From a virus: a DNA stretch of 48,017 nt. The stretch spans positions 1-48,017 of the IMG/VR virus record IMGVR_UViG_3300037087_000068; one strand, written 5' to 3'. Position numbers and translations under genes: made by a program. Shown here one piece after another: positions 2,106 through 48,017 of the stretch (its first letter is position 1; every line of letters begins with the position of its first letter). The notes beneath the pieces are model-generated. The model saw only the letters and a program-made list of their open reading frames with translations. It was not told the DNA's origin and ran no database searches.

Positions 2106-5100
2106 TCATCAACTCCTTTCGGGCTTTTCTCCGGTCAACCTTCTTTTTGGTTTCTTTCGCGCTTCCCTGTTGTGAATCATCAGTTTTCCCTTTCTTGAGT
2201 AATTCGCGTAGCTGTTGAGTATGAAGGGAATCAGGAACCTCTTGATACCCCTGATCTTTCATGTACGCGCTGGCCTCTTCCCGTGACATGAATTTGTTAT
2301 CTGCGACAAAGCCCCTTTCGTGCTTTTGCTTGGAACCTATTTTGTTTGCCGCCAGAATGTCGTCGTGATGCTGATCGAGTGTTCCGTCTATCTGCTTGCC
2401 TTGGAACTTGATGGAGGGGCGCAGGGTGTCAGATACCATGCCGCCTTCTTCATATCCCCCTTGATCGTTTGGCAGATGCAAGACATTCCCCGGCTCTTTC
2501 TCTTTGAAATATTGCTGTAACTTCTCAGCCCCATGCTGTTTCACATTGAACGGGGAAGCGTAGAAATGCCATTGGTCAGACCCGATGTTACCCGGAATAC
2601 CTGAACCCGGCAACTGCGCCCACCTTCCCCCCTGTTGTTCAGGAGTCGAATACTTGCTTTGGTCGCTGAACGTCATATGATTCGGATATTTGAACTCGTC
2701 GCTGAAATGCTGGCCGGGTGTTCGCATGACAGGTTGACCATGTTTCTCTTGGTATCCTGCCATGTCGTAATCTACCATGCCGCCTTCGGCGTAGCCGGTA
2801 GACGGAAAAGTATATTTGATGCCATTGGCGTCGGTAACTTTTTGGGCTTCGGCAATACCTTGCTTCCGGGCATACGCATTGTATGCGCGAACTGCGGCAT
2901 CCCGGACTTTATCCAAGTCCGTTATGTGTTTTGCCGATGTTTTACCAATACCGATGGCATTGTGATATTCAGTTTGCACAGATTCTATGAAATTGCTGAT
3001 ATATTCAACTACTCTTTCAAAGGTAGAAGGACTTTTACTGGACAGTTCATCCCAGAATTTTCGCGTGGTGAATTGGTTGCCCATTAAATCTGCACTGAAT
3101 TCTTCTGCAAGGGCATTCGTGTCGCCGCCCCCCGGATGGTTGCGTTTATATTCGCCAAATCCTTTGACATACGGACCTATAGCTTCCGCAAAATCTCCCG
3201 CAACGTCTGGCATATCTTGTACCATGTGATGGAATAATTCATGTCCAACGATAGCCAAATGTGGTTCGAAAGTCCCTGATTTTATGAAAATTACATCGGG
3301 TTGCGCCCTGTCAACCGCACCCTCAAACTTAACCGATTCACCTTTCACGAATACAACTTTTTTACCAAAGACTCCGGCTATTTTGTCGATACCGGTGGTG
3401 TCTCTACTGAAGTCTGGTCCAAAGGATCGCTCATCCAACTTGCTATTGTTTGTTCGCTCAATAGCATCCCGGAGTCCGTTGACTGCCTTAGATGCATAGT
3501 CGTGCAAAACCTCGGGCGAAGCGGTTCGCAAAGATCCTCCCTCCCCTGAATTTTTACCTGCGGCCATGTCTCCCTGATTTTCCCGTAAAGGGTTTGCCAC
3601 CCCTCGCCCGCCATCTCCAGGCACAAGTCCATTATCGACTGCTGGTGCTTCAATATCTCCATTAGGTCTGATACCGTCTGGACTTCTAACGTTAGCTGTT
3701 TTGCCATCATTTTCCCCCTGCGAATATTTCACTGATTCTTTGCCAATATCCGTCCCGACAAGGCCGCGCTCGTCTTTGATAGTCTTTTGTGCGTTTTGGA
3801 CAATGGAATTGACAATGTTAGCCATTCCCCTGCCTTCAGGGTTGGCGTTAGCCGCTCGCGTCACCAGTGCTTTTCCTGCCTTGGTGGTGGTAAGAAAAGT
3901 TGTTGTCCATGCAAGCGGAAGGGTGGGCAACTTAGTCAATGCGGCTACGCCTAAAACATCGGCAAGGCGGTTGCCTGTGGGAGGGTTCTCTTTGAATTGC
4001 CCCGCGCGTTTCACCACCTGCATGATATTCGCAAGTCCGGTCATGTTGTCTATTTCTTCGGACGACCATTTCACATTCTTCTTGTACTTCGGGTCTTGTG
4101 CAAGGTTTTTTAACGCGGTTGAATACTTCTTCGGACTGAACATTTCTCCGGCCCCGGTCGTTCCCATAGCCTTGTCGTATGCTTCCCTCATGGCATCGAA
4201 TTTGACGCTGTATTGCTTGAAAGCATCATTTGCAGCACGGAAGTCTCTGACTGATTTATCTCCGCCTTGCGACAGAACGGCATCAATATCATCGGACACG
4301 GCTGAATATAATGAGTTGAGTTGCCCACGTGCCGTGTTGGTTTTGGCGTCGCCTATTTCTTTACCTATCCCCTTGCGGAGCGTCCACAAGTCGTCAAAGC
4401 TGAAATCGGGAGCGGCTTTTGTCGAAACACTTTGGACAACAGGATTACCTGCCGCATCAACAACGCCAGTATCAACCCCGGCGGTTGATGTCTGGTCTAC
4501 TGTGTCATTTTTGATATCTTGGAGTATCTTCTTGATATGATTGTCTTGGATGCTTTCAAAAACGGTTGGATAACGGTCAAGCAGTTCGGTTGCAACCTTC
4601 TTGACTTCCGGAGCTTCCCCGCGCGGTAGTTCCTCCGTGTTGGTTTTTACTTTCTCATACAGTCCATCCAAATAATTGTCATTAGAAATCTTCATTGCCG
4701 CCGTGCTATCGGCTGCGGGTTCCACCACGTATTGAGAGAAATGATTAGTGGCCGCATCCTTTGCCGCCGCATGTTGAGTTTCTCTGAATGAAGTCATGCC
4801 GGAAAAAGGAACTTTCTCATTTAAAGTCTCGACGGCTTGCAATCGCGGTTGACCGGTCAACTCTCCACTTGTTACCGGCACCTTGAATCGTTCGCTTTGA
4901 GCGGCAACATCAGGCAACGCTTTTAAACCTACTTTAGAATTAACTCCTTTTGCCACTTTCAATGCCGGATCAACAATCATGGCAGTAGTCAAGGCATTCC
5001 CGGCAGGGTTGGTTATCCATTCATTGCCGCTGCCCAGATTCTTAACCATCTGTTTAACGCCTTGAATGGTTTCTTCACCGCCACCGGGATTGAATGTCGC

Positions 5101-5592
5101 TTGCGTCAAGTCGCCCATTGAGCCAAGAGCGCCATAAGTGGTTTCAACCGCACTCCGGGGAATATTACTGATCCCTTCAACGATATTCGGGATAATGCCT
5201 TGTCCGGTAGTTTCCGCCACGCGGGGCGCTTTCGGCTCTTCCGGTCCTAAGACGGTATCTGCCGCAATTTTACCCATACCACCGCCGAGCATTGCACCCG
5301 CCGCCAGACCTCCGGGAACGGGAGCGGCAAACCCTGTTAATCCGCCCAGAGTCGCACCCGTAGCAACCGCCACCGGTCTACCAACCTTTTGAGCAAACGC
5401 CTTCATATTCTCAGGGTCGACTACGCGCTGAAGGTAAGACTTTTCCGGTATCGCCCCTGCCGCTTCACCGGGAGTATGAGACGCCAGCATAGGCATTCCA
5501 ATCGGAGCCGTCCTTTTTGATTCATATTGGTCAAATTCATTTGCAGCAGGGCTTGGTTGTCTCTTAGCCTCGTACTGGTCAAATTCACCCAT
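2095..5592 (-). CDS. Large internal virion-type protein with HExxH peptidase motif
   Basis: A 1165-residue protein, the largest here. It opens with two copies of an EFDQYE(A/S)KR repeat, followed by a glycine/alanine-rich hydrophobic stretch at about residues 75-118 that could insert in a membrane, then long helical regions. Around residue 783 is HELFHH within AIVGHELFHHMVQD, the zinc metallopeptidase signature HExxH. Near the C-terminus is a segment around HHDDILAANKIG and RGFVADNKFMSREEA, a motif pattern I recognise from other phage proteins. Size, position after the tail genes and the mosaic build fit an ejected internal virion protein of podoviruses, the peptidase possibly acting on the cell wall or virion. 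Start ATG overlaps the previous stop by one base (TAATG). Confidence 0.7.
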   Translation of the reverse strand: MGEFDQYEAKRQPSPAANEFDQYESKRTAPIGMPMLASHTPGEAAGAIPEKSYLQRVVDPENMKAFAQKVGRPVAVATGATLGGLTGFAAPVPGGLAAGAMLGGGMGKIAADTVLGPEEPKAPRVAETTGQGIIPNIVEGISNIPRSAVETTYGALGSMGDLTQATFNPGGGEETIQGVKQMVKNLGSGNEWITNPAGNALTTAMIVDPALKVAKGVNSKVGLKALPDVAAQSERFKVPVTSGELTGQPRLQAVETLNEKVPFSGMTSFRETQHAAAKDAATNHFSQYVVEPAADSTAAMKISNDNYLDGLYEKVKTNTEELPRGEAPEVKKVATELLDRYPTVFESIQDNHIKKILQDIKNDTVDQTSTAGVDTGVVDAAGNPVVQSVSTKAAPDFSFDDLWTLRKGIGKEIGDAKTNTARGQLNSLYSAVSDDIDAVLSQGGDKSVRDFRAANDAFKQYSVKFDAMREAYDKAMGTTGAGEMFSPKKYSTALKNLAQDPKYKKNVKWSSEEIDNMTGLANIMQVVKRAGQFKENPPTGNRLADVLGVAALTKLPTLPLAWTTTFLTTTKAGKALVTRAANANPEGRGMANIVNSIVQNAQKTIKDERGLVGTDIGKESVKYSQGENDGKTANVRSPDGIRPNGDIEAPAVDNGLVPGDGGRGVANPLRENQGDMAAGKNSGEGGSLRTASPEVLHDYASKAVNGLRDAIERTNNSKLDERSFGPDFSRDTTGIDKIAGVFGKKVVFVKGESVKFEGAVDRAQPDVIFIKSGTFEPHLAIVGHELFHHMVQDMPDVAGDFAEAIGPYVKGFGEYKRNHPGGGDTNALAEEFSADLMGNQFTTRKFWDELSSKSPSTFERVVEYISNFIESVQTEYHNAIGIGKTSAKHITDLDKVRDAAVRAYNAYARKQGIAEAQKVTDANGIKYTFPSTGYAEGGMVDYDMAGYQEKHGQPVMRTPGQHFSDEFKYPNHMTFSDQSKYSTPEQQGGRWAQLPGSGIPGNIGSDQWHFYASPFNVKQHGAEKLQQYFKEKEPGNVLHLPNDQGGYEEGGMVSDTLRPSIKFQGKQIDGTLDQHHDDILAANKIGSKQKHERGFVADNKFMSREEASAYMKDQGYQEVPDSLHTQQLRELLKKGKTDDSQQGSAKETKKKVDRRKARKELMSES

Positions 5593-7670
5593 TACTTGCC
5601 CCCATCGGCAATTCTGAATGCCGCTTCAGCTTCTTCTTTGGAATGTCCATTGTCTCTAAGTGCATGGTAAATCTGTTCACGGTTAAATCCATTCCCCAAG
5701 TCGCTCTTAATCCGGTGAGCGGCAACAGATACCTTGTCATTACCTTGAGGCATACCGACAGGAGAGTCAGGAGGAGGAGAAGCAGGAGAGCCTGTATCAT
5801 GTATTTCCTTTTTCCTATCCGTAATGGTCTGACTAAACGTCTTGCCAGTATTTGCCATTTCTTGCTCCGCCGCCTTGATTTTAGCTTCAAGTGATGCATA
5901 ACTGTCTGACGTACTCAATAATTTATCCGCTTGAGCTTGCGCCCCTACAGACAGTTCCGTTGCCGAAGCATAAGCGTTTGTCGTAACTTTATAATATTCA
6001 CGCGAGAACGAAAGAAGTTTCATTTGTAAGTCAGCGAGTTTCGGGTCAGTTGTGGCATTTTTCGCTAATGCTTCCATGCTGTTGACAAACCTTATTCCCG
6101 TCCGGTCATAATTCTTGGATGATTCACGAAGTAATTTTGCTGCACCCGCCGCCTGTAATTCAGCTTTACGCATCAAATCGTACTGCTTGGTATCATTTGT
6201 CAGCGCGGTTTTGCTGGCTTTGAGTACTGCTTGATGTTCGGCTAGGTCATCAATGGATGTTCCTTTGTTCCTCAAGATAGACGACCATTCGTTGTAAATA
6301 GCGTCACGGTCGGCTACGGCGGAAGCCCCCATGCCTAAAGGCGGCATTTGACCCGTTTTAGCATACTGTAATGCCATGTCACGTTTTGCTTCAGGGGTGA
6401 GCTGTGAAATTACACCTTCCTTTAATATGCCAATCTTGCCAACTTTTGTACCAACCGGAGTTTCCTCCCATCCATTCACGCCTTGATGAACTTTTTTGCC
6501 ACCCAACATATAAACTGCGGCCCCTTCAGGAGTGTAACCAATAGGATTCTTGCTCATGCCTTGAGGCATACCTGTTTTAACATCTATCCCACCAACTCCG
6601 CCTACCCCTTGCGTCGGCCCCATATTGCCAACGTCCATCGCTTTCTGACCTTCTACCTGCATAATTCCAGTACCCGGAGCAGGGGGCGCGTGAGGCATCT
6701 TGAAAGACCCATCGGGATTCGTTGACATGTCGGTTGTCGAAGGAGTCAAGGTAATTCCCTTGTTTCCACCCAGACCGATGCCGGGAGCGCCAACGCCTGC
6801 CGATGGATGGTTCGCCGGATTCAATGGGCTGTTCGGCTGTAACTGAGTCGGCAGCATTTCAGCCGGGACGTTACCTTGACCACCCGCCGCCTGTTGAATG
6901 GCTATTGCGCGGGTATTGTCGGCGTTCGCAAGATGATTCGGGTCGGCAATATCGTGAGTTACCGGAGCTTTCGGAACAGGCGCAGGAGTCAGGTTGTCAA
7001 TCCCGCCCGTCCTCATGGATTCGGAAGAAGGAATCGAAGGCATACCAATGGCAGGCTCAAATCTGTTTTCCGGCCTGTCTATCTTGTCGTCAACCACCAG
7101 ACCGCCTTCATCGTATCCCGGCCTTGGAGGGGATTGAACGGTAGGAGTTCCCGGAGCACCGAGGAATAAACCGGAGCCAATACCGGGTTGAACAGCGGTC
7201 GGAGTCGGAGGAGCGGTAGGCTGAACAACAGGAGGAATGCCAATAGGCGCGGTCGCTTGGTCATTCAGCGACATGCCCCCTTCTGCAAAGCCTTGAGGCA
7301 TACCGACTTGCACCCCGGCATTTCTGGGAGGAACCGGATTACCCGCTGACTGCTTGAGTTTGGTCGTTTCCTGATCGAAAAAGAGCTTTCCTATAGAATG
7401 AGCGTCTTCGTCTGAAAGCTGACTTCCCGGCGCCAGTTCCCGCCCTTTGGCGATGATCGCGTCCACCGGAATGATGTATTCCCCGCTTTGCACCGGAGCG
7501 GTCATATTATCCCCACCGCCCGGATTGACCGGACCCGGTAAAACGCCCCCCGGAGTGCCGCCTTGAGCAAAGCCTTGACGTTGCGGCATACCCATAGCCA
7601 ATGGAGCCGCCATCAGCTTTCGGCTGTAAGACTCAAGGGAATTTCTGACAAGATCATCAATGTTATTCAT
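5592..7670 (-). CDS. Gly/Pro-rich virion-associated protein
   Basis: 692 residues. The first 400 residues are low-complexity, rich in Gly, Pro, Met and Gln, with recurring (Q/E)GFA(Q/E)GG and IG(I/M)P units and short stretches such as APVQSGEYIIPVDAI, a pattern seen in phage tail or ejection proteins. The later half (about residue 430 on) is predicted helical (long Ala/Lys/Glu runs), and the last 45 residues (HRIKSDLGNGFNREQIYHAL) look like a small helical domain. It is translationally coupled (TAATG) to the giant downstream protein, suggesting both enter the same particle substructure. No enzymatic motif seen. Confidence 0.65.
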   Translation of the reverse strand: MNNIDDLVRNSLESYSRKLMAAPLAMGMPQRQGFAQGGTPGGVLPGPVNPGGGDNMTAPVQSGEYIIPVDAIIAKGRELAPGSQLSDEDAHSIGKLFFDQETTKLKQSAGNPVPPRNAGVQVGMPQGFAEGGMSLNDQATAPIGIPPVVQPTAPPTPTAVQPGIGSGLFLGAPGTPTVQSPPRPGYDEGGLVVDDKIDRPENRFEPAIGMPSIPSSESMRTGGIDNLTPAPVPKAPVTHDIADPNHLANADNTRAIAIQQAAGGQGNVPAEMLPTQLQPNSPLNPANHPSAGVGAPGIGLGGNKGITLTPSTTDMSTNPDGSFKMPHAPPAPGTGIMQVEGQKAMDVGNMGPTQGVGGVGGIDVKTGMPQGMSKNPIGYTPEGAAVYMLGGKKVHQGVNGWEETPVGTKVGKIGILKEGVISQLTPEAKRDMALQYAKTGQMPPLGMGASAVADRDAIYNEWSSILRNKGTSIDDLAEHQAVLKASKTALTNDTKQYDLMRKAELQAAGAAKLLRESSKNYDRTGIRFVNSMEALAKNATTDPKLADLQMKLLSFSREYYKVTTNAYASATELSVGAQAQADKLLSTSDSYASLEAKIKAAEQEMANTGKTFSQTITDRKKEIHDTGSPASPPPDSPVGMPQGNDKVSVAAHRIKSDLGNGFNREQIYHALRDNGHSKEEAEAAFRIADGGK

Positions 7671-27988: not shown

Positions 27989-28246
27989 TTAGCAACCTAA
28001 TGCTAGTGCCATCTGTTCTGGTTTTTCCTCGGGCAGAGATTGTCCTAGGAAAAGTGAAAGTTGTTGCATGGCCCGTTCTATCCGTTCGCACGCCGGCCAG
28101 AAATAATCCGGGTCAATCTCATAGGCTGTTACGCTAAATCCTGCCTCCAGACAGGCAATAACGCTACTCCCGCTACCCAGATGTGTATCAAGAATCACCT
28201 GCCCCCGTTTGGCAAAATTCAAGAGAAGCCAGGCATACAGCGGCAA
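27989..28246 (-). pseudogene. C-terminal fragment of a DNA methyltransferase
   Basis: About 85 residues match the end of a beta-type DNA N4/N6 methyltransferase: LYAWLLLNFAKRGQVILDTH followed by LGSGSSVIACLEAGFSVTAY, the AdoMet-binding DxxLGSG motif, then a C-terminal helix. It lacks the DPPYG half, which lies upstream on the other side of a 105-bp inverted-repeat element. The PLY flank is present on both sides, so either one gene was split or two fragments met. It might be expressed alone but cannot be a complete enzyme. Confidence 0.6.
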
Positions 28247-28252
28247 GCCGGT

Positions 28253-28357
28253 CGGTTAAGGTGTTGAAAAACAAAATCATCATCAAAAACAGGGACTAAA
28301 CAGAAAGCCGCTAATGACATAAATTCAGGTAGTTAGCGGCTTTCAACACATTAACCG
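28253..28357. mobile_element. 105-bp inverted-repeat element inside methyltransferase gene
   Basis: Ends are 17-bp inverted repeats differing at one base (CGGTTAAGGTGTTGAAA at 28253-28269 and its near complement at 28341-28357). An inner hairpin AAAGCCGCTAA/TTAGCGGCTTT lies near the right end. No coding capacity, so MITE-like, or a regulatory or attenuation structure. No clear target duplication seen. Confidence 0.5.
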
Positions 28358-28816
28358 ATAGGCTAGATACAGCGGTACGGGCTTCTGTGTCGGGTGAATC
28401 TTGCCCTTGTAGTCACCGCAGGCCAGCGGATCACGGGTGTAAATCTTGGCGTTGGCGTCAAAGCTGGTCCATGCCTGTTCACACTCCGCATAGCTCCGAT
28501 CCTTGAAGCCCGCCCCCTTGTTCCAAATGGCAAAGCAGCGGGTAGGCGGGAGCGGGAAATAGTTACCGCCCCAGATGACCTGATTCCGGGACACCCTCCG
28601 AAGTTCGGCAAAATATTCAGGTGGCGGCGGCTCTTTGTCCCAGTCTTTCTTTGCCATCCGCGACGATACCCACTTGCCTTTCTGAGCTTGCCCAAAGTCG
28701 ATTCCATACGGAGGGTCAACGATTGCCAAGTCAAAAGCCTTGTCAGCCATTCCCCGCATTCCCTCCATGTTGTCACAGAGGAAGAGAGTTGCTTTGCCAA
28801 TCGTCACAGATTCCAT
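28343..28816 (-). pseudogene. N-terminal part of DNA N4/N6 methyltransferase, truncated
   Basis: From ATG at 28814-28816 the protein reads MESVTIGKATLFLCDNMEGM and carries DPPYGIDFGQ (catalytic motif IV), VIWGGNYFPLP and HPTQKPVPLY, then stops 8 residues later, inside the inverted-repeat element. The order motif IV first, AdoMet motif last is beta class. It therefore lacks its AdoMet-binding end, found as a separate fragment at 27989-28246. A complete cognate enzyme lies at 30087-30740. Confidence 0.65.
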
Positions 28817-28832
28817 CATTACCTCAATCGCG

Positions 28833-28898
28833 TTACAACCAGCGCCCGGACCAGACCGGGCAAAAACCGCCCGGCAGGTCAAGCGCCAGCCGTTATAG
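28833..28898 (-). repeat. attC-like site D
   Basis: Minus-strand CTATAAC, then a long imperfect inverted repeat (arms include GGCTGGCGC and GCGCTG around a GCCGGGC/GCCCGG stem), then GTTGTAA. The stop codon of the preceding gene (28893) is in the first core. Confidence 0.6.
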
Positions 28899-29261
28899 TG
28901 CTCTGCGGCTGCGTGCCAGTTTCACCGGCCTCCGAAATCGAGCGGAGTAACTCTGAATTACAGTGTTGCCGGTGAATGGATCAGTTTTTATTGTTTGGTC
29001 ATGGTCAGAAAACGACAATTCAAAATCTTCGATATAACGGCCTGATCTAGTTGTCCTGCCGTTGTTGGAAAACCCGCCGACCATGTGAGCAAATTCAGGG
29101 AATACAAATCTGGGATCATCGTCAGTATGTGTTTTCGGTCTATATCTCGGGGTCAGCCACACACAACTCCCGTCCACTGCCAGTACATCGAAATTACAGA
29201 ACTGGTCATATCTGATTGCAATGTATTTCCCGCAGTCACTGATAAATGTATTTGTGTCCAT
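28893..29261 (-). CDS. Cassette-borne hypothetical protein, 122 aa
   Basis: Started at ATG 29259-29261 with GGAGG; the longer frame to 29321 runs into an attC-like site and is rejected. Begins MDTNTFISDCGKYIAIRYDQ and has aromatic-rich beta segments (VFPEFAHMVGGFSNNGRTTR) and a basic tail (RFRRPVKLARSRRAL). The gene is bounded by attC-like sites C and D, as a gene cassette would be. No family recognised. Confidence 0.55.
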   Translation of the reverse strand: MDTNTFISDCGKYIAIRYDQFCNFDVLAVDGSCVWLTPRYRPKTHTDDDPRFVFPEFAHMVGGFSNNGRTTRSGRYIEDFELSFSDHDQTIKTDPFTGNTVIQSYSARFRRPVKLARSRRAL

Positions 29262-29278
29262 AAAATCCTCCATTCGCA

Positions 29279-29338
29279 CTATAACAACGTGCAGGTTTGG
29301 CCTTCGCTGCGCTCGCCGCACAGCTCAAGCCGTTATGA
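29279..29338 (-). repeat. attC-like site C
   Basis: Minus-strand TCATAAC, then GGCTTGAGC, a GC-rich hairpin body, then CACGTT and GTTATAG: 60 bp. The opening ATAACGGCTTGAG is shared exactly with the site after recT (45764). The stop of the preceding gene lies in the first core. Confidence 0.7.
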
Positions 29339-29623
29339 GGACACCACAACGGGTATCTCTCGGATAAGTTCAGCTTTCGTCCTGTCCAAAACCAAAACCT
29401 CAAACTCGCCACGGCGCAGAAAGATGGCGCACACGTCGGCTTTAGTAATCAGGTATTCCGACACCTTATCAACTCCCCGCTTTCGGGCGAATTTCGCGGC
29501 CTCTTGCGGAAACAGGGTGTAGTTGATCCCCTCCGTTTTCTTGGCCTTGTAGGTGAACCAGCAATTTCGAGCCAGCATGAAAGCGGCGACAAACTCAAAT
29601 GCAGCGTTGATAAAATCCGGCAT
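29333..29623 (-). CDS. Cassette-borne hypothetical protein, 96 aa
   Basis: MPDFINAAFEFVAAFMLARN opens with an amphipathic/hydrophobic helix, possibly membrane-associated. Then comes a basic part with KKTEGINYTLFPQEAAKFAR and a beta/helical end with RRGEFEVLVLDRTKAELIRE. Starts at a TAATG overlap with the preceding zinc-ribbon gene, so the two are a two-gene cassette. Not recognised. Confidence 0.55.
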   Translation of the reverse strand: MPDFINAAFEFVAAFMLARNCWFTYKAKKTEGINYTLFPQEAAKFARKRGVDKVSEYLITKADVCAIFLRRGEFEVLVLDRTKAELIREIPVVVSS

Positions 29624-29775
29624 TACGCCCTCCAGTTATGATTACATCCGTAGCAGTGGCAGTCGGTAAAAAGTTTCAGTTTGGAGGCTGGGCCAATATA
29701 GGCAGCAGTATTGGTCTGCTCAACGTTCTTGCTCCCGCACTTTGGGCAGGGAATTTCTTTATAGTCGCGGCCCAT
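29623..29775 (-). CDS. Cassette-borne small zinc-ribbon protein, 50 aa
   Basis: MGRDYKEIPCPKCGSKNVEQ begins with CPKC, and a later CHCYGC lies near the end. Together they form a four-cysteine zinc ribbon of the kind found in small nucleic-acid binding proteins. Its stop overlaps the next start (TAATG). Confidence 0.55.
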   Translation of the reverse strand: MGRDYKEIPCPKCGSKNVEQTNTAAYIGPASKLKLFTDCHCYGCNHNWRA

Positions 29776-29785
29776 TCAAAACCTC

Positions 29786-29846
29786 GCATAACAAGCGCTG
29801 TGCAGCAGGCGGGAAAAGCCCGGCTGCTGACGCTTGATCGTTATGG
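29786..29846 (-). repeat. attC-like site B
   Basis: Minus-strand CCATAAC, GATCAAGCG, a hairpin with CAGCAGCCGGGC and GCCTGCTGCAC arms, GCGCTT, then GTTATGC: 61 bp. The stop of the preceding gene is in the first core. Confidence 0.7.
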
Positions 29847-30017
29847 CGCTATCCGTTTAACTAACTCTCGTTGAATAGTTTCCATGTCCCGCAATGTTTC
29901 CTGATCTGCGTCAACAACAACATCACTACCATAAAGTTGTTCCAAGTCCATCGCAGCTATTAACGCCGATGCCGCCTCTTTTGCTTGGTGGCTCAATTCT
30001 CGTTTTCCGATTTTCAT
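29841..30017 (-). CDS. Cassette-borne hypothetical protein, 58 aa
   Basis: Started at ATG 30015-30017 with GGAGGT. MKIGKRELSHQAKEAASALI, then an acidic helix DLEQLYGSDVVVDADQETLR and a basic end. All-helical. The single gene between attC-like sites A and B (about 250 bp apart), the size of a small integron cassette. Unknown function. Confidence 0.5.
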   Translation of the reverse strand: MKIGKRELSHQAKEAASALIAAMDLEQLYGSDVVVDADQETLRDMETIQRELVKRIAP

Positions 30018-30035
30018 CTTCGTGGCACCTCCGCA

Positions 30036-30092
30036 CCATAACCAAAACGTTGGACGGGGACGAACCCCGCCCGTCAACTTGAACTGTTATAG
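30036..30092 (-). repeat. attC-like site A
   Basis: Minus-strand CTATAAC, AGTTCAAGTTGACGGGCGGGG-type arm, a CCCCGTCCAACG return arm, then GTTATGG: 57 bp. It pairs almost fully with a few mismatches, as attC sites do. The stop of the methyltransferase gene (30087) is inside the first core. Confidence 0.7.
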
Positions 30093-30740
30093 TGCTAATT
30101 TGAACTGTTGCTGTGCGCGGTCTATCCGTTCACAAAGTATGTCGAAATTTCGCTTCATCTTCTCAATGCCGATGTACTTGATCCCCATATCCATGCAGGC
30201 GACACCAACGGGGCCGGAGCCCGCGAAGGGGTCAACTATCAACTTCGGCATCTCTTTTCGCTTCGTGATGCACCATTTCATCAAAGCAATCGGCTTCTGT
30301 GTCGGGTGTACCCGTGGCTCATTCCGCTCAGAGTCCCGGAGCATCCCGTTCCACATGTGTCGGAATAGGCGGGCGGCAATCGGTAGGTTTGACCATGCCA
30401 GCTCGCAATCTGCAAAATCATTGCCGCCGTTCATCTTGTCCCACGTAAGCCAACCCGGCTGCGGCGGCAGATCAAAGTAGTTGCCGCCCCAGATGATGCA
30501 ATGCTTCCCCGCAGCTATTGTGGCCGCTATTTGTTCAGGGCTTGCGGGTTGCTTGTCCCAGTCGAAACTTCCGTAGTCAATGGGTGCCGCCAGTTTCCCC
30601 CGGCTTGCGGCCTTTGCGTTGCTCTCTCCAATGCCATAGGGCGGGTCAGCAATCACAAGGCAGGCCTGCGGCAGGTTTGGCAGCACGTCCAGGCAGTCAG
30701 CGTGGTACAATTCGGCATTTCCAATCACCACCTTATGCAT
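30087..30740 (-). CDS. DNA N4-cytosine/N6-adenine methyltransferase (beta class)
   Basis: 217 residues from ATG 30738-30740 (MHKVVIGNAELYHADCLDVL). It has ADPPYGIG (catalytic motif IV near the N-terminus), IIWGGNYFDLP, VHPTQKPIALMKW and the AdoMet-binding VDPFAGSGPVGVA (motif I) near the C-terminus. That order is beta class. It transfers a methyl group from AdoMet to an exocyclic amine in DNA, probably to evade host restriction or for regulation. Its start overlaps the stop of the membrane protein gene by 8 bp and its stop lies in attC-like site A. The target sequence cannot be inferred. Confidence 0.8.
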   Translation of the reverse strand: MHKVVIGNAELYHADCLDVLPNLPQACLVIADPPYGIGESNAKAASRGKLAAPIDYGSFDWDKQPASPEQIAATIAAGKHCIIWGGNYFDLPPQPGWLTWDKMNGGNDFADCELAWSNLPIAARLFRHMWNGMLRDSERNEPRVHPTQKPIALMKWCITKRKEMPKLIVDPFAGSGPVGVACMDMGIKYIGIEKMKRNFDILCERIDRAQQQFKLAL

Positions 30741-34797: not shown

Positions 34798-35388
34798 TTA
34801 GATTTCTCGCGCATACATCGCTTCTACCGACTTCGGCGTGATCCCCAAGTATTTGTATGTCATTTTAAGCGAAGAATGATTCAACTCATTCGAGATTTCC
34901 GCCAAATCGGTTTTGAAATGGTAATACTGAAAGAAGGCCCAGGTCTTTCGCAGGGTATGTGAAGAGAAATCCCCCTTAAAACCGCAATCTTCGCACCACT
35001 TTTTGACCAGCCTTGAGACTGCCGGCACCGTCAGAAAACCCGAACCCTTCCGAGACGGGAACAATGGCGCCGAAGGATCGGCCAATGGAAGCCTGACCAG
35101 CGCCTTTTTCACAGCCGCATTGATCGGAATACGCCGAATCTTGCCCGTTTTTTTCTCCCTGATAAGGAGCTCGTTGCCTTGAACGTCGCTTACCGTCAGT
35201 CTGATAATATCCGAGGCTCTGAGGTTTGTATTGATGCCGAGAGTCAACAATGCCAGATCCCGCAGCGAATGACGCGACAGGTATTCCTTGACTTCTGCCA
35301 CCTGTTCAAACGTCCTCAGAGGTTCGGCTGTGATAATGTCGCCCTTCGCTGGATGATTCGCTGATTGAACTTGCTGCCGTGGCGTCAC
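34798..35388 (-). CDS. Short tyrosine recombinase
   Basis: 196 residues from the GTG at 35386-35388 with AAGGAGG six bases upstream. Contains the catalytic set of the family: R57 (NLRASD), K79/80 (REKKTGK), H144 and R147 (HTLRK), H171 (NHSS) and Y180 (YKYLGI). It lacks the usual N-terminal core-binding domain of integrases (normal length 300-400), with only about 20 residues ahead of the catalytic domain. It could be a phage integrase, a dimer resolvase, or the enzyme that recombines attC-like sites, but nothing proves any of these. No attachment site could be identified. Confidence 0.7.
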   Translation of the reverse strand: MTPRQQVQSANHPAKGDIITAEPLRTFEQVAEVKEYLSRHSLRDLALLTLGINTNLRASDIIRLTVSDVQGNELLIREKKTGKIRRIPINAAVKKALVRLPLADPSAPLFPSRKGSGFLTVPAVSRLVKKWCEDCGFKGDFSSHTLRKTWAFFQYYHFKTDLAEISNELNHSSLKMTYKYLGITPKSVEAMYAREI

Positions 35389-35432
35389 TCGCGCCCTCCT
35401 TAAAACCAAGATTGAAGCAAAAAATTTTTCAG

Positions 35433-38091: not shown

Positions 38092-39417
38092 ATGAAAAAC
38101 ATTCTCAACCTGCCTCGATACAACGTCCTTGCCACCAAAGAAGACGACCATGAATATCACCTGGACGCTGAAACCGCGTCCCCTTCCGAGTCCTGCTTTG
38201 CCTGCGGTTCTGAGAACGTAGTAGGCGGCGGACGGCAAGAGATACTGATTAAAGACCTCCCTATGCACGGCAAGCGAGTAGGTATCTATGTCAAGGCTCG
38301 CCGCTTCCGTTGCCGGGACTGCGGAAAGACACTGACAGAACGGCTCCCTGATGTTATCGACGGGCAGCGCATGACCGCCCGCCTTTACCGCTGGATATGC
38401 CAACAGTCCATCAACAAGACCTTTACCAGCATAGCCAGTGATATTGGCGTTTCTGAGGGCACTATCAGAGGCGTGTTCAATGAATACGTTGTGGAACTGG
38501 AAAGAACAACCGTCTTTGAAACCCCTGAATGGATGGGCATTGACGAAATCCATATCATCAAAAAGCCCCGTTGCGTCTTCACGAATGTTGAAAACAATAC
38601 CGTTTTCAACCTTCTTCCAGACCGGAGCAAGGTGCTTGTCACTAACTATCTGATGAGGCTTAACAACCGGCAGAGCGTCCGTTGCGTAACTATGGACATG
38701 TGGCAGCCATACCGTGATGCTGTCAATGCCTGCCTGCCCCAAGCCTTCATCGTTATCGACAAGTTTCATGTTCTGAGAATGGCTAATCTTGGTCTTGAGG
38801 TTATCCGTAAAGGTATCAGAGAAGACCTCACCAAGAAGCAGCGCCGGGGACTGATGCACGACCGCTTCATTCTCCTGAAGCGAGAAGGTAACCTTCTGCC
38901 GATGGACAGGATTACGCTTGAATCTTGGACGAAGAACTTTCCGGCTCTGGGGGATGCGTACCATGCCAAGGAGGGGTTCTTTGACTTCTACGAGTCCATG
39001 TCCATCCCTGAAGCCAAACACGCTTACTGGAAGTGGGAAGGCGCTTTGACTCCTGCCATTCGGGAAGCCTTCAAGCCCCTCACGACGGCTATGAAGAATT
39101 GGGAAACAGAAATCATGAACTACTTTGAGAGTCCCGTTACCAACGCCTACACCGAGTCCCTGAATGGATTGATTCGGGTAGTTAATAGGTGTGGCAGGGG
39201 CTACTCTTTTGAAGCCCTCAGAGCCAAGATTTTGTTTTCTGCCGGTGCTCATAAAATCGTCCGTCCTAAGTTCCAACGTAGAGATTCTTGGGAACATGCT
39301 GGTGTTATGGAGTACGGCGCAAATCCGATGCTAACAACAGAAAGTCTCCAGAGACCAAAGAACTATGGAACTGATATTTCAACACTGCTGACCCTTATTG
39401 AAAGAGAACAACCTTAA
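38092..39417 (+). CDS. ISL3-family transposase
   Basis: 441 residues. N-terminal zinc-binding part (CFACGSENVVGGG, RRFRCRDCGKTLTERLPDVI) and HTH (TSIASDIGVSEGTIRGVFNE), then the DDE catalytic domain: MGIDEIHIIKK, DMWQPYRDAVNACLPQAFIV with DKFH, and SLNGLIRVVNRCGRGYSFEA. The order and the zinc ribbon fit ISL3 (IS204/IS1001/IS1165). Length is normal and no frameshift is seen, so it should be active. It is flanked by a matching pair of inverted repeats and target duplication. Confidence 0.85.
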   Translation: MKNILNLPRYNVLATKEDDHEYHLDAETASPSESCFACGSENVVGGGRQEILIKDLPMHGKRVGIYVKARRFRCRDCGKTLTERLPDVIDGQRMTARLYRWICQQSINKTFTSIASDIGVSEGTIRGVFNEYVVELERTTVFETPEWMGIDEIHIIKKPRCVFTNVENNTVFNLLPDRSKVLVTNYLMRLNNRQSVRCVTMDMWQPYRDAVNACLPQAFIVIDKFHVLRMANLGLEVIRKGIREDLTKKQRRGLMHDRFILLKREGNLLPMDRITLESWTKNFPALGDAYHAKEGFFDFYESMSIPEAKHAYWKWEGALTPAIREAFKPLTTAMKNWETEIMNYFESPVTNAYTESLNGLIRVVNRCGRGYSFEALRAKILFSAGAHKIVRPKFQRRDSWEHAGVMEYGANPMLTTESLQRPKNYGTDISTLLTLIEREQP

Positions 39418-44622: not shown

Positions 44623-44847
44623 ATGGCAACGCCACCTAAATACCAGAAGGGCATGAAAATTGACAATCTCATGGATTGCATCGCTTATCTCATGGCCGGC
44701 GCAGTATTTTATGTCGAAAGCCGATTTATGGGCGCCAAGGTTCTCAACTCGGTATTCGTGAAGCATTGGAGTTTTGCTTATATTCAAGAGCAGATAGATT
44801 GCGGCCTGTTATACCTAGCCGAAAAAAGGAGAAATGCAAATGGCTGA
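44623..44847 (+). CDS. Small hypothetical protein, 74 aa
   Basis: MATPPKYQKGMKIDNLMDCI, an aromatic/hydrophobic middle (GAVFYVESRFMGAKVLNSVF) and a basic end. SD GAGGTG. It overlaps the RecT gene start by 8 bp. Unknown function. Confidence 0.5.
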   Translation: MATPPKYQKGMKIDNLMDCIAYLMAGAVFYVESRFMGAKVLNSVFVKHWSFAYIQEQIDCGLLYLAEKRRNANG

Positions 44848-45769
44848 TAACCTGCCAGTAGAAAGACCGAAGTTTGAAGAAATGGCACTGTCCGCTCACC
44901 AAATGTTTGCCAAGGTTCTAGGCGAAGATGTATGGCTCAGAGAGATCGGCTTTGCCATGCAGACGCTCAGGGCAAGCGAATACTTGCAGGGCGTAGCGAA
45001 GACCGCAGCCGGGCAGGACTCAATCAGGAATGCGATTGTCAACGTCGCACTATGCGGAACTTCGCTGAACCCGGCTAGAAAGCAGGCTTATCTTGTCCCG
45101 CGCAAAGTGAATGGGGTTATGCTCTGTTGTCTCGATATGAGTTATATTGGACTTGCTGGGATAGCTATGGACTCCGGAAGCGTCAAACACATCGCCCCCA
45201 GACTCGCTTATTCCTTCGATACCTTTGAATACGACGAGCTTGACGGCGAGATCCACTTGAAGCACATTCCCAACATGAACCCGCCACCTGAGTTTTGCGC
45301 CGGACCTCAGAAGTTTTGGGATTACCTCGTTTGCGGATATACCGTCTCCACCCTCCATGACGGAACGAAACTGATTTCCCAACCGTTGCCGAAGTGGAAG
45401 ATTGAAAAGGCTATGAAAACTTCCATGACCACTAGCGACAAGACCCCGTGGCGTACCCATCCGGACGAAATGGCGATGAAAACGCTTATCAAACATGCGT
45501 ACAAACTTCTGCCGCAAACAGACAGAATGAGTCAGGCTGTCGAAGTCTTGAATCAGCATGAAGGGCTTGACCTTTCGCAAAAGCAGATCGGTGCATCCTC
45601 TTTTGACCGCTTCAAGCCTGAAGAAACCCCTTTCACCGATGTTGAGACAGAGCCCCTTGTTGGCGATACCGGCATGACACAGAAAGAACTTGACGCGATC
45701 AAGAAGGAAGAATTGGAGAAGTTTGGTACTCCTGAAGAGCAGCAGCAATCCGGATTGTTCGAGAAATAA
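44840..45769 (+). CDS. recT: RecT-family single-strand annealing protein
   Basis: 309 residues from ATG 44840 (AAGGAG eight bases upstream). Features of RecT: QDSIRNAIVNVALCGTSLNP, ARKQAYLVPRKVNGVMLCCL, DMSYIGLAGIAMDSGSVKHI and the end of the core, WRTHPDEMAMKTLIKHAYKL. It anneals complementary single strands after RecE-type resection, for phage recombination and replication restart. The acidic C-terminus is typical. The stop codon lies in the core of an attC-like site. Confidence 0.8.
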   Translation: MADNLPVERPKFEEMALSAHQMFAKVLGEDVWLREIGFAMQTLRASEYLQGVAKTAAGQDSIRNAIVNVALCGTSLNPARKQAYLVPRKVNGVMLCCLDMSYIGLAGIAMDSGSVKHIAPRLAYSFDTFEYDELDGEIHLKHIPNMNPPPEFCAGPQKFWDYLVCGYTVSTLHDGTKLISQPLPKWKIEKAMKTSMTTSDKTPWRTHPDEMAMKTLIKHAYKLLPQTDRMSQAVEVLNQHEGLDLSQKQIGASSFDRFKPEETPFTDVETEPLVGDTGMTQKELDAIKKEELEKFGTPEEQQQSGLFEK

Positions 45770-45813
45770 CGGCTTGAGTTGAGCCGTACAACGGCTCGAA
45801 CGTTTGGTTATGA
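45764..45813 (+). repeat. attC-like site E, downstream of recT
   Basis: AAATAAC (stop of recT inside), GGCTTGAG, a hairpin GAGCCG/CGGCTC, GAACGTTTG, GTTATGA: 50 bp. Its first 13 bases (ATAACGGCTTGAG) are identical to site C at 29279-29338, which reads on the other strand. Confidence 0.65.
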
Positions 45814-45839: not shown

Positions 45840-46013
45840 ATGGACGGAAGAAATCCAGATATGTTTGAACCGCACAAAATTTGTCCACTCTGCAACCTTC
45901 CGATTCTGGACAATCAAAGCAGGGTGATGCAGGCGCATTATGGGACCGGCGAGTTGCGGACTGTCCACCGTAAATGCCGTGATAAGGAGGTGCCTTGTGC
46001 AAATCACCATTGA
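45840..46013 (+). CDS. Cassette-borne zinc-finger protein, 57 aa
   Basis: From ATG 45840 (GGAGG upstream): MDGRNPDMFEPHKICPLCNL, CPLC then AHYGTGELRTVHRKCRDK: CxxC plus H-x3-C type. It overlaps the next gene by 17 bp. It lies between attC-like sites E and F. Confidence 0.55.
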   Translation: MDGRNPDMFEPHKICPLCNLPILDNQSRVMQAHYGTGELRTVHRKCRDKEVPCANHH

Positions 46014-46188
46014 ATACTTGGACGGCACAAGTGAAGTATTCCCCGAAACGTCACGTACTGGCGGGAGTTATTGCACAACAGGCAAGGCAGAAATGGGATG
46101 GTACATCGTGTCAGATGCTTACGGCAATCAGACAAAAATACCCGCAGACCGAATCAAGGCGGTGCGAACATCTGGCGGGAGATGGTAA
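45997..46188 (+). CDS. Cassette-borne hypothetical protein, 63 aa (GTG start)
   Basis: GTG at 45997 with AAGGAGG six bases upstream. VQITIEYLDGTSEVFPETSR, then TGKAEMGWYIVSDAYGNQTK and a basic end. Beta-rich. Stop is 3 bp before attC-like site F. Unknown function. Confidence 0.5.
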   Translation: MQITIEYLDGTSEVFPETSRTGGSYCTTGKAEMGWYIVSDAYGNQTKIPADRIKAVRTSGGRW

Positions 46189-46191
46189 GCA

Positions 46192-46251
46192 TCATAACGA
46201 CAAAGCGCACCGGCAAGCGGAGCGCAGACCGTGTGCCGCGACTGGTTATAA
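46192..46251 (+). repeat. attC-like site F
   Basis: TCATAAC, GACAAAGCGCACCGG, a loop, CCGTGTGCCGCG, then GTTATAA: 60 bp. The two arms pair imperfectly, as in attC sites. With site E it frames a two-gene cassette. Confidence 0.65.
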
Positions 46252-47278: not shown

Positions 47279-47506
47279 GTGGGCGGCTACCTCGACCTGA
47301 GAGGGTGCACCTTCCCTGACGGCTTCAAGCTCCCTGACTCCGTGGGCGGCTACCTCTACCTGAGCGGGTGCACCTTCCCTGACGGCTTCAAGCTCCCTGA
47401 CTCCGTGGGCGGCTACCTCTACCTGAGAGGGTGCACCTTCCCTGACGGCTTCAAGCTCCCTGACTCCGTGGGCGGCTACCTCGACCTGAGAGGGTGCAAA
47501 AATTTG
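47279..47506 (+). repeat. 63-bp tandem repeats, about 3.6 copies
   Basis: Units start at 47279, 47342, 47405 and 47468 and are nearly identical at DNA level, differing mainly in TAC CTC GAC/TAC. Their DNA identity with the units at 47882-48017 suggests recent gene conversion or expansion. Confidence 0.75.
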
Positions 47507-47551
47507 CCAGTTATTCCCGACCATCTTAAAAACGAAATTATCCACTGGTGA
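47279..47551 (+). pseudogene. 63-bp-repeat protein lacking its N-terminal domain
   Basis: Four 21-residue units of VGGYLDLRGCTFPDGFKLPD type, ending CKNLPVIPDHLKNEIIHW. A GTG begins the first unit but has no ribosome site. The N-terminal domain seen in the second copy (47681) is missing. A 22-codon ORF (47232-47300, ATGA overlap with the MazG-like stop) runs in another frame over its start, as if a shift or deletion occurred. May be a partial duplication. Confidence 0.5.
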
Positions 47552-47680
47552 AATCGGCCACCACGGCACGCCTCATGAAGAGCACCCAGGATGCCCGCGG
47601 AGTTGCCCTGCTGGAGTTACCGATCGGCCATGCAAGGATATGAGTAATAAATAACTACTACATATTAAGGAGAAGTCAAA

Positions 47681-48017
47681 ATGAAAATCACAAACGAATG
47701 GCTGCTCAAAAAAAGTGCGTGTACCGAAGGCCGGAACTGGTTCAATAAATATTTCCCTGATGGCGGTGACATTGAATCGGTATTGATTATGATCGTCGCA
47801 GACGAAGCGAATGGTGGGTGGATAAACTGGCTAATGACTAAAGCGGAGTACACCGAACTGTCATGGCTGGAAGGGTTGACGGTGGGCGGCTCCCTCGACC
47901 TGAGAGGGTGCACCTTCCCTGACGGCTTCAAGCTCCCTGACTCCGTGGGCGGCTACCTCGACCTGAGAGGGTGCACCTTCCCTGACGGCTTCAAGCTCCC
48001 TGACTCCGTGGGCGGCT
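47681..48017 (+). CDS. 63-bp-repeat protein, N-terminal part (off right edge)
   Basis: ATG with AAGGAG upstream. A 67-residue N-terminal domain (MKITNEWLLKKSACTEGRNW, EANGGWINWLMTKAEYTELS) is followed by VGGSLDLRGCTFPDGFKLPD repeats that run to the window end. The repeats form a regular beta-solenoid-like pattern with G-G-x-L-x-L-x-x-C, reminiscent of leucine-rich/pentapeptide repeats found in some phages. Function unknown; the second and third repeats are at 47945 and 48008. Confidence 0.6.
   Translation, partial: MKITNEWLLKKSACTEGRNWFNKYFPDGGDIESVLIMIVADEANGGWINWLMTKAEYTELSWLEGLTVGGSLDLRGCTFPDGFKLPDSVGGYLDLRGCTFPDGFKLPDSVGG
47882..48017 (+). repeat. 63-bp tandem repeats, second array
   Basis: Units start at 47882, 47945 and 48008 (cut by the window end) and match the first array almost base for base. 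Confidence 0.75.

Follow-up and report, generated by a model that had tools for sequence, protein, structure and literature searches.

Integron attC-type sites opposed to their adjoining genes in a phage genome fragment and in related phage contigs

Integrons and CALINs have been reported in phages by Qi et al. 2023, with IntI1 activity tested (PMC9892861). The DNA analysed here, hereafter called the window, forms a linear virus record in IMG/VR (48,017 bases), whose genes include those for a terminase, a head-tail adaptor, a major head protein, RecT and an exonuclease. It resembles the phages of that report in its attC clusters, small genes and methyltransferases (some of those phages also have intI), but it is unlike M16-3 and TJE1, where attC lies on the gene strand (for TJE1 as judged by the strand of the annotated genes). 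P12002L, alone among the phages of that report, has a plus-strand site between minus-strand genes. Virus Rctr41k (KX853513) is a phage that likewise has methyltransferase genes, attC-like sites and an integrase of the integron type, but its attC sites and genes are on one strand and its IntI falls outside the 14-member phage clade described below.

Cassette insertion in integrons is described as highly orientation-specific, so that the integron promoter drives the genes (PMC3607928). Bacterial chromosomal and mobile integrons share with the phage clade the attC structure, the IntI family, an attI (attI-like in the phages) beside intI, and an intI divergent from attC. Their cassette genes, however, run with attC and away from intI, whereas those of the phage clade run against attC and toward intI. 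The reverse-type integrons of Treponema (PMC3607928) are like the phage clade in having intI and cassette genes co-directional. In Treponema transcription of intI heads toward attI and the array, whereas the cassettes of the phage clade are upstream of intI and run into it, with attC antisense to the genes; this position of the cassettes, read from the clade and not from the window, sets it apart from the Treponema-type reverse arrangement.

To score the sites we used two covariance models, R1 from 30 attC of known integrons, extracted by structure and with the window outside the training set, and R2 from 24 sites of other phages only. The source loci of R1 were 80 with integron integrase relatives (from bacterial genomes) together with the known integrons of the phage collection. 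R1 recovers the attC arrays of integron loci and, across related phage loci totalling 611 kb, had no match at E<=1; R2 recovers bacterial attC and the TJE1 sites, with no match at E<=1 in 919 kb of other sequence, outside integron and known-attC loci. On the 48-kb window the top four matches of R1, run with filters off, were sites D, E, F and C, with the next at 9.7 bits, and R2 found five sites (E, D, C, F and A) with scores between 33.8 and 53.2 bits, E 2e-5 to 8e-10 (Table 1). The R''/R' boxes, the L''/L' stem and the unpaired bases of attC are present in C, D, E and F by R1 and in A, C, D, E and F by R2. Site A gave no full-length R1 match. Site B is the weakest of the six; it is degenerate and its R2 score is level with background, and its R' half is typical.

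Table 1. Positions of the attC-type sites and the adjoining genes in the window
Feature	Position	Strand	Remarks
Second methyltransferase gene, in two pieces	27989..28816	-	After site A; gene broken by a short insertion; similar to 30087-30740
attC-type site A	28833..28898	+	R2 33.8 bits, E 2.3e-5; stop of gene 28893-29261 at offset -5 in R'
Cassette gene, 122 aa	28893..29261	-	Stop in site A
attC-like site B	29279..29338	+	R2 14.7 bits, E 0.55; R1 4.7 bits; stop of gene 29333-29623 at offset -5
Cassette gene, 96 aa, phrog_25265	29333..29623	-	Stop in site B
Cassette gene, 50 aa, zinc-ribbon-like	29623..29775	-	Weak DUF7340 match; first of two genes between C and B
attC-type site C	29786..29846	+	R1 15.6 bits, E 0.09; R2 37.3 bits
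Cassette gene, 58 aa	29841..30017	-	ORF with ribosome-binding site; from site D to C; stop in site C
attC-type site D	30036..30092	+	R1 28.5 bits, E 3e-5; R2 38.5 bits
DNA methyltransferase gene (N6_N4_Mtase)	30087..30740	-	Pfam E 1.6e-17; PHROG DNA methyltransferase; stop codon in site D
recT-like gene	44840..45769	+	phrog_148, E 1e-36; stop codon inside site E; backbone gene
attC-type site E	45764..45813	-	R1 27.0 bits, E 8e-5; R2 53.2 bits; directly behind recT
Two small genes, 57 and 63 aa	45840..46188	+	45840-46013 and 45997-46188; between sites E and F
attC-type site F	46192..46251	-	R1 17.8 bits, E 0.02; R2 34.4 bits

A preliminary description of this DNA had listed A-D as four imperfect palindromes with (C/T)ATAAC and GTTAT or GTTGTAA ends, in each of which the left core contains the TAA that ends the preceding minus-strand gene. 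All of these ends are present, as is the stop in 4/4 sites. The attC covariance-model search that it proposed recovers C and D with R1 and A, C and D with R2, B remaining weak. It had placed the sites on the minus strand like the genes, which is wrong; both models read A-D with the plus strand as the top strand of attC, and the genes lie on the other strand. As a set, sites A-D are beyond chance, B alone scoring level with background, and chance palindromes were rejected. A, C and D lie within 1.3 kb. Two further attC-type sites that the description lacks, E and F, lie some 16 kb from A-D and within 0.5 kb of each other; there the genes run on the plus strand, and the minus strand bears attC. 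A close look-alike of site F is found in another phage (L211:8412).

The 122-aa cassette protein has no relative in IMG/VR, and blastn of the array against known phages gave no match. A tRNA scan found nothing. The two methyltransferase genes that flank the array are similar to each other. The second of them is split at 28235-28375 by an insertion of about 120 bp with imperfect terminal inverted repeats; the 9-bp ATACAGCGG is directly repeated on its two sides (28235 and 28367), and the whole resembles a MITE. Elsewhere in the phage record an insertion sequence holds a transposase gene (38092-39417, plus strand, phrog_5749), and the record breaks off within tandem repeats (47279-48017, period about 63 bp) that encode GGYLDLRGCTFPDGFKLPDSV units.

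The arrangement is inverted at each of the six sites of the window, and a canonical cassette, with the gene on the attC strand and ending at R'', was found at none of them. In 20 viral records a gene ends antisense at the R' box at 41 of 48 phage attC; 4 of these 41 also have an ORF in the canonical position, none of the 48 is canonical only, and 7 were unassignable. The corresponding counts for 79 attC of bacterial and known phage loci are 52 with only the canonical arrangement, 6 with only the inverted one, 3 with both and 18 unassigned, all genes being called by a simple caller and sites within one phage, as well as near-copies between contigs, not being independent. At most of the 41 inverted sites the last base of the stop lies five bases inside R', giving TAA^C, exactly at the crossover. 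A TAA stop in a core box is not unusual alone, as 23 canonical sites have one in R''. A consensus pattern scan of IMG/VR gave 21 stretches, several of them near-copies from one sample series, and the callable adjoining genes were all in the sense of the pattern, none antisense. Genes in canonical orientation are present in L231 and L236; the unit in L231 has overlapping ORFs on both strands, hence its real gene may be canonical.

Relatives found through the terminase and the methyltransferase had no attC at E<=1, hence relatives were sought via recT, helicase, the site pattern and IntI. Three site-bearing contigs of the pattern scan have an IntI above the NCBIfam cut-off, and a scan of IMG/VR with these three proteins gave 22 contigs with a related integron integrase. 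The IntI contigs carry phage genes (portal, terminase, primase and endolysin), and their cassettes encode, among others, N6_N4 methyltransferases, a NADAR protein and a protein with a weak ASCH match. Fourteen integrases group in one phage clade (SH-aLRT 99), separate from 68 IntI of bacteria, and the IntI of G026 is in a second, smaller group. No close relative of the phage IntI was found in 764 bacterial genomes, and among the matches listed for phages and plasmids none was above 43% identity. A clade of this kind, with inverted cassettes, is not described in PMC9892861, and no report of one was found in the open-access papers searched.

In 11 of 20 IntI loci, and in G026 and G037, the R1 matches are upstream of intI and on the other strand, which is the layout of ordinary integrons, and most neighbouring genes at the same IntI loci are co-directional with intI. 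In L236 (877-4088), a viral contig with IntI, attC and genes are downstream on the same strand, like in Treponema integrons. Before intI, a block TAACAnnnnTTA...GGCnnnnTAA is conserved in 14/14 members of the main clade, and in 8/14 the last gene stops in the TAAC of this block; we read it as an attI-like site. A complete integron, with intI and an attI-like block beside the array, is present in related phage contigs and was not found in the window. There intI (TIGR02249) was not detected, as also in G001 and G002, and the window record may be incomplete. The window has at least two attC close together without intI, and hence is a CALIN-like member. The preliminary description regarded carriage of cassettes in a late or replication interval of a phage as unusual; the sites do lie in a phage, but phage attC clusters were already reported in PMC9892861.

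Comparison with related phages, as the preliminary description had proposed, revealed homology breaks at attC sites with differing flanking genes. G001 and G002 are 82% identical as far as 14 nt into an attC, with no further match beyond that point, and the next genes differ. Between the TAAC core and the ribosome-binding site, G022, G024 and the window have one and the same sequence for site E and its ribosome-binding leader; both flanks differ, the divergence starting within the R' box, and the block of attC plus leader precedes three unrelated genes. In the window the 3' end of recT reads GAAATAAC, after which site E follows; in G001 it reads GAATAAC followed directly by another gene, the recT homologue there having no attC behind it. 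In L231 an exact 715-bp repeat bounded by TAAC cores, at 4755-5469 and 6201-6915, corresponds to a 708-bp cassette that is duplicated, and one cassette copy adjoins the attI-like block. Integrase-mediated insertion at attI predicts such a duplication; the match is no proof of the enzyme. The two attC models, the intI-bearing relatives and the homology breaks together uphold the earlier reading of these units insofar as attC-type sites bound cassette-like units in a phage, and what fails of it is the orientation.

These breaks also bear on whether the array is a fossil, that is, real attC remnants that are inherited vertically and no longer recombine in the phage of the window. The missing intI in the window, G001 and G002, the degenerate site B and the last gene broken by an insertion would all fit such decay. 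We consider it unlikely, though the strongest of the alternatives, as site E is identical in three phages despite different genes on either side and phages with IntI and the same kind of site exist.

Another explanation would be an ordinary CALIN, with canonical cassettes from a host chromosomal integron whose orientation was mis-called because attC is quasi-palindromic. CALINs in phages are already known (PMC9892861), but the two strands score very differently: with R1, site D has 28.5 bits on the plus strand and 5.3 on the minus strand, and site C 15.6 and 5.1. Further, the geometry of intI to attC, which was read independently, is that of ordinary integrons and yet the genes are flipped, and the same models call known integrons canonical. 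A mis-called orientation seems hence improbable, more so than a fossil array.

Still less credit is given to the idea that the sites serve a short tyrosine recombinase and not an integron integrase. Such an enzyme (203 aa, phrog_216) is encoded in the window at 34798-35409, and a gene for a 45% identical recombinase lies near attC-type sites in G001, but a relative occurs in 1 of 21 site-bearing contigs compared with IntI in three, and on this count it was set aside as the main enzyme. That the sites are transcription terminators or RNA hairpins between genes that resemble attC by chance is most improbable of all: attC hairpins can be weak terminators (discussed in PMC9892861), but terminator-like sites (a G+C-rich stem followed by a T-run) are in no excess over shuffles, with only stretches inside site A flagged, an Rfam scan gave no match, and the attC match covers both core boxes and their spacing.

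Our preferred reading, to which we assign a probability of about 0.75 on the basis of the sequence comparisons, is that the window is a phage fragment with two inverted-cassette attC clusters, recombined at TAA^C by a phage-type integron integrase. The integrase might be supplied in trans by a co-infecting phage or be encoded in an unseen part of the genome from which the window derives. It would recombine the folded attC bottom strand, which here is the gene-sense strand, with the crossover at 5'-TAA^C-3' (the complement of G^TTA in R'), so each cassette would read C-attC-ribosome-binding site-gene-TAA. As insertion would take place directly behind a stop codon, the upstream gene would stay whole and the new genes would join the phage operon. 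The captured genes would then be transcribed by that operon, and an outward Pc promoter would be unnecessary. The methyltransferase cargo may protect phage DNA from host restriction.

On balance we also favour, with less confidence, a wider picture in which a phage lineage would possess its own IntI clade and attI, flipped cassettes that join the operon and whose genes each have their stop codon formed at the crossover, and a network that shares cassettes, with members lacking intI, such as the phage of the window, being served in trans. If this is true, the polarity of integrons can be remodelled to suit the transcription context, and phages would be owners, not mere carriers, of a gene-capture system. 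The site E block in front of three unrelated genes would then give a handle on the origin of cassettes, and the swapping of possible anti-restriction methyltransferases between phages would be explained.
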